Source of the DNA: an uncultured beta proteobacterium
Lineage (GTDB): Bacteria; Pseudomonadota; Gammaproteobacteria; Burkholderiales; Burkholderiaceae_C
Length of the DNA stretch: 15,044 nucleotides
Assembly: GCA_903958915.1 (NCBI GenBank)
Contig: CAJBVC010000770.1
Span: 1 to 15,044, forward strand
Direction of reading: 5' to 3'
Under the pieces are notes generated by a model. It did no database searches, was not told the DNA's origin, and worked only from the letters and a program-made list of their open reading frames with translations. The first letter of the stretch is position 1. The number at the start of each line of letters is the position of its first letter. Positions 5,304 through 7,605 of the stretch are shown one piece after another. Made by a program: the position numbers and the translations under genes.

Positions 5304-5918
5304 ATGCAGTCCCCCGTTGTGTCCTGGTTTTCCGATCGATCACCTGATGATCGGACGCTGTTCGCACGGATCGCCGCGGGCGACCAGCATGCATTTGACC
5401 AACTGTACCGCCGCGAATCGGGCGCGGTGTACCGCTACGCACTGGCTGTCTGCGGCAATGAAGCCTGGGCCGCAGACGCATTGCAGGAAGCATTCCTGGC
5501 CTTGTGGCGCGGGACACTGGCATTTGATCCAGCCAAAGGCAACGCGGCTGCGTTCCTGTGTGGCGTCGCACGTCACCATGTGCTCGCGCTCGTGCGAGAC
5601 CGACTGCATGGCGCGCAGGTGTGGGAGCCCGAACGGGATGAAGATGGTGCGCTGGACCATGGGTCCGACCCGCAGGCGCTGGCCATGCAGGTGCAATCCA
5701 TGTCGGCCCTGCACGGCGCGTTGCAGTCATTGCCATGGCATCAGCGTGAAGCGGTGGTGCTGGTGGATCTGCAGGAGCGCGACTACGCCCAGGCGTGTGC
5801 CATCGCCGGCGTTGCGCTCAACACCCTGCGCACGCGCTTGCTGCGAGGACGGCGGCAACTGCAAAAGCTGCTCAACCCCACACAGGTCGACCAACTCGAC
5901 CACAGGAAGATCGCATGA
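5304..5918 (+). CDS. ECF sigma-70 family RNA polymerase sigma factor
   Basis: A 204-aa ECF sigma factor. Sigma region 2 spans about residues 15-90, with AFDQLYRRESGAVYRYALAV and DALQEAFLALWR (the core-binding/-10 recognition helices). Sigma region 4 spans about 130-195, with LPWHQREAVVLVDLQERDYA and AGVALNTLRTRLLRGRRQL, the helix-turn-helix that reads the -35 element. No extra C-terminal domain is present. The stop overlaps the next gene's start by ATGA, and that gene encodes a one-TM protein, the usual layout of sigma and anti-sigma. I start at the ATG at 5304 because region 2 begins at normal distance from it; no ribosome binding site is visible. The ECF subgroup and signal are unknown to me. 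Confidence 0.94.
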   Translation: MQSPVVSWFSDRSPDDRTLFARIAAGDQHAFDQLYRRESGAVYRYALAVCGNEAWAADALQEAFLALWRGTLAFDPAKGNAAAFLCGVARHHVLALVRDRLHGAQVWEPERDEDGALDHGSDPQALAMQVQSMSALHGALQSLPWHQREAVVLVDLQERDYAQACAIAGVALNTLRTRLLRGRRQLQKLLNPTQVDQLDHRKIA

Positions 5919-6433
5919 GTACCCCCAAAGAACTGCTGGATGCGTGTGAACCGCCCGCATGGGTCTATGTGCAATTGCGTGGATCCCTCGACACAAGACG
6001 CCTAGGAACCTGGGCGGCAGAGGGTTCTGCGCAGGTAAAAGGAGGAGCCCGCAGGGCGGGCGACTCGGAGCAGGGCCCTCTGCCGCCCAGGCTCCTGGAG
6101 CGCCGTGGGCTCGGCGTAGCCATGCGGCAGTGGCTGGAACGCTGGCGCTGGCAGGGTGCCGCATTGGCGCTGACGGCGCTGTTTTCACTGGCATGGATTC
6201 TCGACAGCCAACTTGCCGGACCCGACCCGGTCACCGGGCAATTCATGGCGGTCACAGAACTCGGCGCGTTTCCCGCAGAAGACGAGGTCTGGCTCGTCTC
6301 CGCAGAGCTACCACAGCAGCAATTGGCGGCCATGGGGCTGCCGTTTGATCCGGCACGCGCAGGCGAGCGGGTGCCGACCCAGGTTTTGTTGCGTGCCAAC
6401 GGAGAGTTGTTGGCCGTGCGTTTGGACCATTGA
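5915..6433 (+). CDS. Probable membrane anti-sigma factor with palindromic-element insertion
   Basis: A 172-aa protein with a cytoplasmic N part (1-79), one membrane helix (about 81-97, GAALALTALFSLAWIL) and a periplasmic C part of about 75 residues (TGQFMAVTELGAFPAEDEVWLVS onward). Its ATG overlaps the sigma gene's stop. Topology and position argue for the cognate anti-sigma factor, holding the sigma factor at the membrane until a signal arrives. The C part has an anti-sigma-K-like flavour, but no zinc-binding H-x3-C-x2-C motif is present, and the family assignment is inference. The notable oddity is that about residues 30-62 are encoded by a 97-bp palindromic element, so roughly two fifths of the presumed sigma-binding region is Gly/Arg-rich insert peptide. 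Either that segment is a tolerated loop or control is impaired. Confidence 0.75.
   Translation: MSTPKELLDACEPPAWVYVQLRGSLDTRRLGTWAAEGSAQVKGGARRAGDSEQGPLPPRLLERRGLGVAMRQWLERWRWQGAALALTALFSLAWILDSQLAGPDPVTGQFMAVTELGAFPAEDEVWLVSAELPQQQLAAMGLPFDPARAGERVPTQVLLRANGELLAVRLDH
6002..6098. repeat. 97-bp palindromic element inside the anti-sigma coding region
   Basis: Arms 6002-6024 and 6076-6098 pair over 23 positions: 21 Watson-Crick pairs, one T-G pair and one A-C mismatch. The left-arm core is CCTGGGCGGCAGAGGG and the right-arm core CCCTCTGCCGCCCAGG. The 51-nt interior holds a second perfect hairpin, GCCCGC-AGG-GCGGGC (6047-6061), and just before it the purine tract AAAAGGAGGAG. The element is read through in frame. 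A long imperfect palindrome with an inner hairpin is the plan of small non-autonomous repeats (REP/MITE-like), and in-frame residence recalls Rickettsia palindromic elements. I see no second copy in this window, so mobility is inferred only from the structure. Confidence 0.7.
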
Positions 6434-6453: not shown

Positions 6454-7605
6454 ATGAAAAATCGTTACCGCAAAGGGGGTTTGCTGTTCGGACTGACGGG
6501 CATGGCCGCGGCAGTCTTTGCCCAGGCTGGCACACCGGGAATTGCCCTCGAACACCAGATGGAGCACCGCATCGAGTTGCTGGCCCAGGCGGGCGGCAAT
6601 GTGATGGCGTTCCCGCCCGAAATCATCATCAGTGACAGTCGCACCGACCACCAGGCGTCGCGCATTGTGAAGGGTGCACCCTACTGTGCCGAGGTAAGCA
6701 ACGAGACCACCGAGTGGTTGATGGACCCCGCTGGAGCGTCGGCGAACAAGATCGTGAAGAAGACTGTGGGCCAGATGTGCCGTGACAGCGAGGGACGCAC
6801 CCGCCAGGAGCGCGAAGATGGCGGTCGCAAACGGGTGCTCCTGCACGATCCGCTGGCACGCGAGCATTGGGTTCTGGACCCGGTAGAAAGGACCGCGCGC
6901 AAGACCGGCGTTGCGATGGTGACCATCGGCGCAAACACGGGCAACGAAGGTGCTGGCACCTGGCGCGAATACGGGCAGCGCGTACGCGATTGGGCAAGAA
7001 ACATGGCCGGGCGGGCACGCGAAGAAGTCATCATTGAAAACGTCCATCCCGGTGCACCAGGCGCACATCCCATGCCGCCAACACCAAACGCCGAGCCGGT
7101 GACGGTGACCCGCAATGAAACGGTATCGCCCGACGGAAAGCGCCGGGAAGTGGAAGTGCGCGTCATTCGCAAAGGCGGCCACGATGGAGCGGCCAGTGGA
7201 CTGCCTCCGCTGGCACCCCTCCCACCCGGCATCCAGCTTCAGGCGCACCGTCTGGCGCCACGCGGCCCGGGGGTGGTGACCGCATTGCCGGCCAAGGACA
7301 TGGAAGGCGTCAAGGTCCATGGTGAGCGCACCACCTGGACCACGGAGGCCGGCAAGATCGGCAACGAAAAGGCAATCGTGCAGACGCGCGAGGTGTGGAC
7401 CTCCCCCGAACTGATGCTCACGGTATACAGCAAGGACTTTGATCCACGCCAGGGCGAGGCGGTGTACCGGTTGTCCAACATCAAACTCGGTGAACCGCAG
7501 GCGTCACTCTTCAAGGTGCCACCAGGTTATGAGATCAAGGAGGCCCCCCCGCTGCCGAAACTGCCGGCGCTGCCTGCACCACCAGCCGCGCCAGCCAAAG
7601 GCTGA
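6454..7605 (+). CDS. Secreted protein of unknown function, ECF-linked
   Basis: A 383-aa protein with an N-terminal signal peptide (MKNRYRKGG, then a hydrophobic stretch ending AAAVFAQA, likely cut near residue 25), so periplasmic or exported. The start at 6454 is set by AGGAGA seven bases upstream; an in-frame ATG at 6430 overlaps the previous gene and breaks the signal peptide. Two cysteines (in GAPYCAEVS and VGQMCRDSEG) could form a disulfide. The region around GRTRQEREDGGRKRVLLHDPLAREHWVLDP and the C-terminal stretch EVWTSPELMLTVYSKDFD, GEAVYRLSNIKLGEP, LFKVPPGYEI resemble secreted LolA/RseB-like beta-sheet proteins that I have seen near ECF genes; this is weak pattern recognition only. 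The end is Pro/Ala-rich. It starts 20 nt after the anti-sigma stop, so it is very likely in the same operon, and may be a sensor or a target of the sigma factor. Confidence 0.75.
   Translation: MKNRYRKGGLLFGLTGMAAAVFAQAGTPGIALEHQMEHRIELLAQAGGNVMAFPPEIIISDSRTDHQASRIVKGAPYCAEVSNETTEWLMDPAGASANKIVKKTVGQMCRDSEGRTRQEREDGGRKRVLLHDPLAREHWVLDPVERTARKTGVAMVTIGANTGNEGAGTWREYGQRVRDWARNMAGRAREEVIIENVHPGAPGAHPMPPTPNAEPVTVTRNETVSPDGKRREVEVRVIRKGGHDGAASGLPPLAPLPPGIQLQAHRLAPRGPGVVTALPAKDMEGVKVHGERTTWTTEAGKIGNEKAIVQTREVWTSPELMLTVYSKDFDPRQGEAVYRLSNIKLGEPQASLFKVPPGYEIKEAPPLPKLPALPAPPAAPAKG

Follow-up and report, generated by a model that had tools for sequence, protein, structure and literature searches.

A 97-bp palindrome lying in frame within a putative anti-sigma factor gene (6002–6098) is likely to belong to a family of hairpin elements dispersed in chromosomes, probably of the Beta-proteobacterial repeat element (BRE) type, and to have been inserted whole into a working gene. 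The palindrome lies in a stretch of 15,044 nucleotides, hereafter the window, which contains the following features:

5304–5918, + strand: ECF-type sigma factor gene (Pfam Sigma70_r2 and Sigma70_r4_2; TIGR02937 above cut-off)
5915–6433, + strand: host gene, putative membrane anti-sigma factor of 172 aa (from its position, one hydrophobic stretch and homologues P0001–P0006)
6002–6098, + strand: hairpin element, apparently inserted in the host gene, sense to the host; exact DNA ends not fixed
6002–6027, + strand: left arm of the outer stem (pairs 26 to 1)
6028–6046, + strand: conserved core, 5′ strand, TGCGCAGGTAAAAGGAGGA
6047–6057, + strand: apical hairpin GCCC-GCA-GGGC, short-loop subtype
6058–6072, + strand: conserved core, 3′ strand, here GGGCGACTCGGAGCA
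6073–6098, + strand: right arm of the outer stem (pairs 1 to 26)
6454–7605, + strand: gene downstream of the host gene, with a similar gene following the orthologue in locus L181; no Pfam family

Direct reading bore out the 97-bp palindrome with 23-nt arms and an inner hairpin that a preliminary description had placed in frame here, the arms (6002–6024 and 6076–6098) forming 21 Watson-Crick pairs, one wobble and one A/C mismatch around the hairpin at 6047–6057. The outer stem goes on inward through 6025–6030/6070–6075, with wobbles at two of these six pairs. RNA folding, which had been proposed as a check, gave −84.9 kcal/mol for 5990–6110, far stabler than 200 dinucleotide shuffles of the same segment (−53.5 ± 3.7 kcal/mol; z −8.45), none of which (0/200) was as stable. 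The 5′ core strand carries one A more than most copies of the family, and this extra base together with the short apical loop makes a core of 45 nt, divisible by three. The 3′ core strand departs from the family sequence at two nearly fixed positions, 6061 and 6065, and for this reason the window copy stands outside the statistics on 252 copies given below. As an element the window copy may have had its day, while still being kept as protein. In the conserved core strand (6028–6046 in the window) lies AAGGAGG, complementary to the ribosome's anti-Shine-Dalgarno sequence; where a copy is sense to its gene, this motif is part of coding sequence. On the minus strand, a terminator-like site at the window element was judged weak.

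The host gene overlaps the sigma factor gene by ATGA, and the element occupies residues 30–62 of its 172-aa reading frame (5915–6433) without a stop. We regard the protein as a putative anti-sigma factor, as previously proposed, from its place behind an ECF sigma gene and its single hydrophobic stretch; these two features stand, whereas the family search, in which the protein matched nothing in Pfam or NCBIfam, lends no confirmation. Orthologues lacking residues around 30–62 had been named as support for an insertion, and three close homologues of 141 aa (P0002–P0004) match the host protein throughout except that they are short of exactly 31 residues (93 nt) at the element. A fourth (P0006, 151 aa) is likewise without the segment, while P0001 (172 aa, 92% identical to the host protein) has the 31 residues. 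In L181, which comes from a different genome of the genus, an orthologue within a comparable set of three genes also lacks it, in a looser alignment. Since the segment is a dispersed repeat, it was gained rather than lost. P0031, a UvrD-like protein, and P0037, of the HybE family, contain the same peptide in the same phase. The structure model of the host protein is poor (mean pLDDT 55.5, pTM 0.24), and in this low-confidence model the inserted stretch has no ordered structure and separates helices at the N-terminus from the membrane helix; because the segment falls in a stretch modelled in this way, the host protein probably still works despite the insertion. At the DNA level no empty site was close enough to fix the ends of the element, the relatives fetched being too diverged. 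No clear direct repeat marks the element ends in 198 copies, the 4-mer at boundary 22 giving z 2.3 (7 full matches vs 3.6 expected), and the target-site duplication expected of a MITE of a DNA transposon does not stand out.

Many dispersed copies, intergenic ones included, had likewise been named as support, and they are present: the window's own draft genome yields 33 matches (the query and its own reverse match included), two of the 33 rows together making up a single copy whose apical arm is enlarged, and a covariance model matches 49 of 61 genomes of the window's genus. The same model found the element in 13/300 genomes of a sample of the order (the window's own included, with the 12 others belonging to 7 further genera) and in 9/81 genomes of one other family. 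Of 101 genomes searched with an exact core pattern, 33 matched, each belonging to the window's genus, with up to 50 copies per genome, and the pattern read backwards matched none of the 101; among the matches listed for the exact pattern are many from Rhodoferax, together with other Comamonadaceae and other Burkholderiales. Most copies were collected by this pattern, so the conservation of the core reported here is inflated and partly built in. No match turned up among plasmids, phages or viruses at the sensitivity used, nor did a diverged copy match any plasmid, and these negatives fit a chromosomal-only distribution. Individual copies depart from the common form: one (L027, 1501–1651) has its apical arm enlarged by ~65 nt with further hairpins, and two loci from another genus (L279, 1501–1700; L287, 1–200) have one further, coreless repeat of the 3′ arm plus ~12 nt downstream of the hairpin.

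Across the family, a core made up of TGCGYAGGTMAAGGAGGA, an apical stem and GGGGGACACGGAGCA is enclosed by an outer stem, the core reading AAGGAGGAG...GGGGACA in short form. The G/A-rich internal loop is conserved and a small hairpin stands at the apex, with apical loops of three bases being commonest, while the outer stem of ~24–29 pairs (about 24 plus TGC/GCA) differs in sequence between copies, its changes compensated. Standard pairing in 198 copies is 92–98% at pairs 1–20, 87–88% at pairs 21–22, 70% at pair 23 and 55% at pair 24. In a set limited beforehand to copies with 20/23 or more positions paired (60 of 147), changes on both sides are seen at 31 of the 33 pairs, compared with 20.9 ± 1.4 in shuffles (0/500 as high). 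The element measures ~93–96 bp and full-length model matches mostly 91–119 nt, with a G+C content of 0.57–0.79 and ends that are not fixed; the outer ends vary, with only a weak C..G at position 26. At the element in the window stretch and at 10 further loci, no Rfam family exceeded its gathering score, and the hairpin hits returned were far below it. A REPIN with conserved outer ends was ruled out, the conserved part being the internal loop.

The two strands of the stem are not equivalent. Over 22 pairs, G·T mismatches outnumber A·C mismatches by 317 to 61, and by 227 to 46 when one copy is taken per orthologous site (144 sites). The ratio is 12:3 in copies antisense to their coding sequence, 51:7 at one site whose 25 copies all run against the upstream gene, and 108:12 in 78 copies of other genera (duplicates removed), a count for which the right-arm offset was chosen for best pairing. 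Because an effect acting on both strands predicts parity, the G·T excess shows that selection favours folding of the element's own strand, in the form of either RNA or single-stranded DNA; and because the bias persists in copies antisense to the upstream gene, this selection acts irrespective of the neighbour's transcription.

Coding context was called not from annotation but with a purpose-made codon-usage classifier that had the long ORFs in the fetched loci as its training set, and 237 of the 252 copies had usable flanks. Coding sequence lies on both sides and on one strand in 71/237, with the same frame in 61 (60 of them stop-free) and differing frames in 10, which may represent either neighbouring genes or frameshifts. 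A core of 44 nt, which would shift the frame, is present in 4/71 copies with coding sequence on both sides and in 38/166 others (Fisher p 0.001). Being in frame is part of the definition of the 60 coding copies, which comprise 51 sense and 9 antisense; a single phase is used by 50/51 of the former and 8/9 of the latter, and counted by distinct site the same phase is used by 21/22 sense sites (p 5e-9; the 22 being 23 clusters with two merged as one site) and 6/7 antisense sites (p 1e-3). In the 176 other copies the used phase is open in 62% of cases in the sense direction, against 76% and 39% for the other two phases, and in 46% against 76% and 73% in the antisense direction. The used phase is thus not the most open one, and open frames alone fail to explain the preference. 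The Gly/Ala/Arg-rich peptide noted in the preliminary description is characteristic of the short-loop subtype found in the window, whereas the commonest subtype encodes something else (SAQVKEEPAQRAGDTEQ). Where only one side is coding, the orientation of the element is unlinked to its neighbour (13:15 for a gene before it, 28:25 for a gene after it).

In 259 pairs of orthologous copies, 821 double changes and 533 single changes kept the pairing, while 543 single and 144 double changes broke it. At 32 sites the unpaired core is 98–99% identical, the flanks 83–85% and the stems 74–75%, such that the arms diverge faster than the flanks yet stay paired; these orthologue comparisons are biased by the pattern-based collection of copies. 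One intergenic site was followed in 50 of 97 matching genomes (the 30 best loci and 20 chosen genomes). The 30 best loci include 25 with a copy and 5 with none; 19 of the 20 further genomes have no remnant with filters off, and in the remaining one an intact copy stands ~550 nt away from the gene and may occupy another site. The core at this site is exact in 18/25 copies, carries one or two changes in 6 and several in one (L396), and the intergenic flanks hardly align. At 12 of the 25 loci the well-kept copy has a partner nearby that scores only 19–60 bits, and from these low scores decay does occur. Close neighbours (<260 nt) are divergent in 91/102 cases and in the same orientation in 4/102 (orthologous sites included), with mostly ~45–60 bp between the hairpins of divergent pairs. 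The spacers of many divergent pairs (L402, L404, L384 and L400) contain GCTGCGAAG / CTTCGCAGC or a near variant beside one hairpin. We tentatively suggest that the family is an unrecognised class of functional folded nucleic acid, present at dozens of sites in Burkholderiales, with many copies kept by selection; 'many' and not 'each', since partner copies at the followed site decay. Held just as tentatively, a fixed loop in a stem of free sequence would be active in the form of the element's own single strand whatever the transcription around it, and the element might be tolerated inside genes as its length and one phase give an acceptable peptide.

As to how copies arise, the element would be moved, now or formerly, in trans by a putative enzyme that would use the conserved internal loop to recognise the folded single strand. 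The form recognised would most likely be single-stranded DNA, a choice that we hold at a little short of even confidence, and RNA is given a lesser chance. Insertions in genes would survive when their length keeps the frame and their phase yields a hydrophilic, flexible peptide. Strand asymmetry and a fixed loop together predict a specific binding partner, making the DNA-or-RNA question testable.

The best-surviving alternative, which we consider possible while leaning against it, is that the element is an RNA gene whose own strand is a structured RNA of ~80–95 nt, with the AAGGAGG loop binding a protein or the ribosome. Compensation in the stem and the excess of G·T on one strand both agree with this, and paired copies face away from a spacer of ~50 bp, an arrangement that suits divergent transcription. 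If BRE is the same element, a transcript of 70–80 nt running opposite to both neighbouring genes, given for a BRE locus in the part of the published account consulted (PMC3110155), also speaks for it. However, no conserved promoter-like sequence lies beside the copies, composition being nearly flat beyond position 28, and none was found in 5850–6250 of the window; furthermore, intergenic copies show no orientation to their neighbours (the 13:15 and 28:25 above) and coding copies occur in both orientations.

It is unlikely that the family is a REP/REPIN-like repeat mobilised by a Y1 (HUH) transposase of the RAYT/TIRYT type. Like REPs, REPINs and BIMEs with their RAYTs, it consists of hairpins with G·T pairs in the stem, in inverted pairs (the 91/102 divergent neighbours) and sometimes inside genes; the consulted part of one account likewise places REPs inside genes in several species, describes G·T pairing as frequent in their stems, and gives for the TIRs of TIRYT transposases, found as single, dimeric or grouped copies, the motif GGGGWSAS, which the core GGGGACAC fits (PMC3733652). 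A Y1 hit is also present in 54/61 genomes of the genus. Against this, REPs and REPINs measure 20–40 bp with a GTAG or CGTC tag at the foot and flank the RAYT gene, whereas the element here is ~95 bp, is conserved inside rather than at the outer foot, where the arms are free, and lies within 1.5 kb of none of 45 Y1 loci. A RAYT/TIRYT transposase as adjoining mobiliser was rejected on this absence at all 45 loci, which also sets the element apart from the TIRs of TIRYT transposases. Of 33 RAYT-like ORFs (38 loci), 31 have their own GGGGWSAS motif no more than 250 nt away, and five genomes with 13–47 matches, all drafts of 66–91% completeness, gave no Y1 hit. At L032 (1168–1866) and similar loci, a RAYT-like gene (MARLPR...) has its own GGGGTCAG-type repeats close by.

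Equally improbable, in our view, is selfish DNA without function at its sites, in which template-switching at replication corrects one arm from the other. The arms that outpace their flanks and yet stay paired, the patchy distribution and the decay of partner copies would all follow. Correction in double-stranded DNA nevertheless predicts equal G·T and A·C, in conflict with the observed 317:61 (227:46 per site), and the core is exact in 18/25 copies at one site though the flanks there hardly align. Native coding sequence that is palindromic by chance, the outcome that the preliminary description tied to a segment conserved throughout the genus with no copies elsewhere, is compatible with the open frame and with the segment kept in the close homologue P0001, and is refuted by the dispersed copies and by the homologues short of exactly this segment, leaving it a negligible chance.

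Returning to a dispersed element inserted into the gene, we consider it probable, with slightly less assurance than for the insertion itself, that the element is of the same kind as BRE, described by Hot et al. in 2011 (PMC3110155), the likeness being one of description. The preliminary description knew of no such elements in this kind of bacterium, and on this point it is superseded by BRE being in print, with some copies in coding sequence (PMC3110155, as far as the consulted part of that account goes). That part describes a chromosomal repeat of ~90 bp (Bordetella copies 75–91 bp, 63.7–78.9% G+C), counted at >70% similarity to a Bordetella query in Rhodoferax ferrireducens, Polaromonas, Delftia, Acidovorax, Azoarcus and Bordetella, mostly intergenic with some copies wholly in coding sequence, and with the transcript of 70–80 nt against both neighbours at one locus. 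Both repeats are G+C-rich and of broadly similar size, the full-length matches here, with ends not fixed, being mostly 91–119 nt. Chromosomal-only occurrence and hosts including Rhodoferax and other Burkholderiales agree with the element here, as does the mostly intergenic placement with some coding copies (here 61/237 in coding sequence by the classifier). At some Bordetella loci, however, BREs stand in tandem with few or no nucleotides between them, whereas here 4/102 neighbours share an orientation and pairs are ~50 bp apart. The consulted part of the BRE account reports no conserved core, covariation, phase or strand asymmetry, all of which are present here, and the strict reading phase and one-strand fold look new relative to the 2011 repeat; if the element is BRE, that repeat gains a structure and a likely mode of action. 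For R. ferrireducens, the repeats mentioned in the consulted part of its account are CRISPR only (PMC2755013), and a limited literature search recognised no further paper describing this Rhodoferax hairpin family. PARCEL repeats also encode palindromic sequence but are tandem units of 25 residues and not single dispersed hairpins (PMC2996958, consulted in part).

As a repeat the element is ordinary; what sets it apart is the fixed loop, the strand-specific fold and the use of one reading phase. Rickettsia palindromic elements are likewise palindromic, dispersed and inserted in frame in unrelated genes. The parallel with them drawn in the preliminary description holds in part: in-frame palindromes do occur in other genes here (60 coding copies, 22 distinct sense sites), though in another class of bacteria and with a likeness drawn from description, and we know of no Rickettsia element with arms varying freely around a fixed loop. 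Repeat-made protein sequence, ~31 residues per event, thus appears outside Rickettsia in hrpA, mpl, putA and a putative regulator, and its coding copies follow a measurable rule, one phase with 51 sense vs 9 antisense. Scanned hosts include Mpl, HrpA, PutA, a DsbA-like protein, AlkA/Ada and MeaB. HrpA has three different element sites across species, as judged by shared flanks, and four loci with an hrpA-type gene (L098, L161, L178 and L185) each carry two element sites at once.
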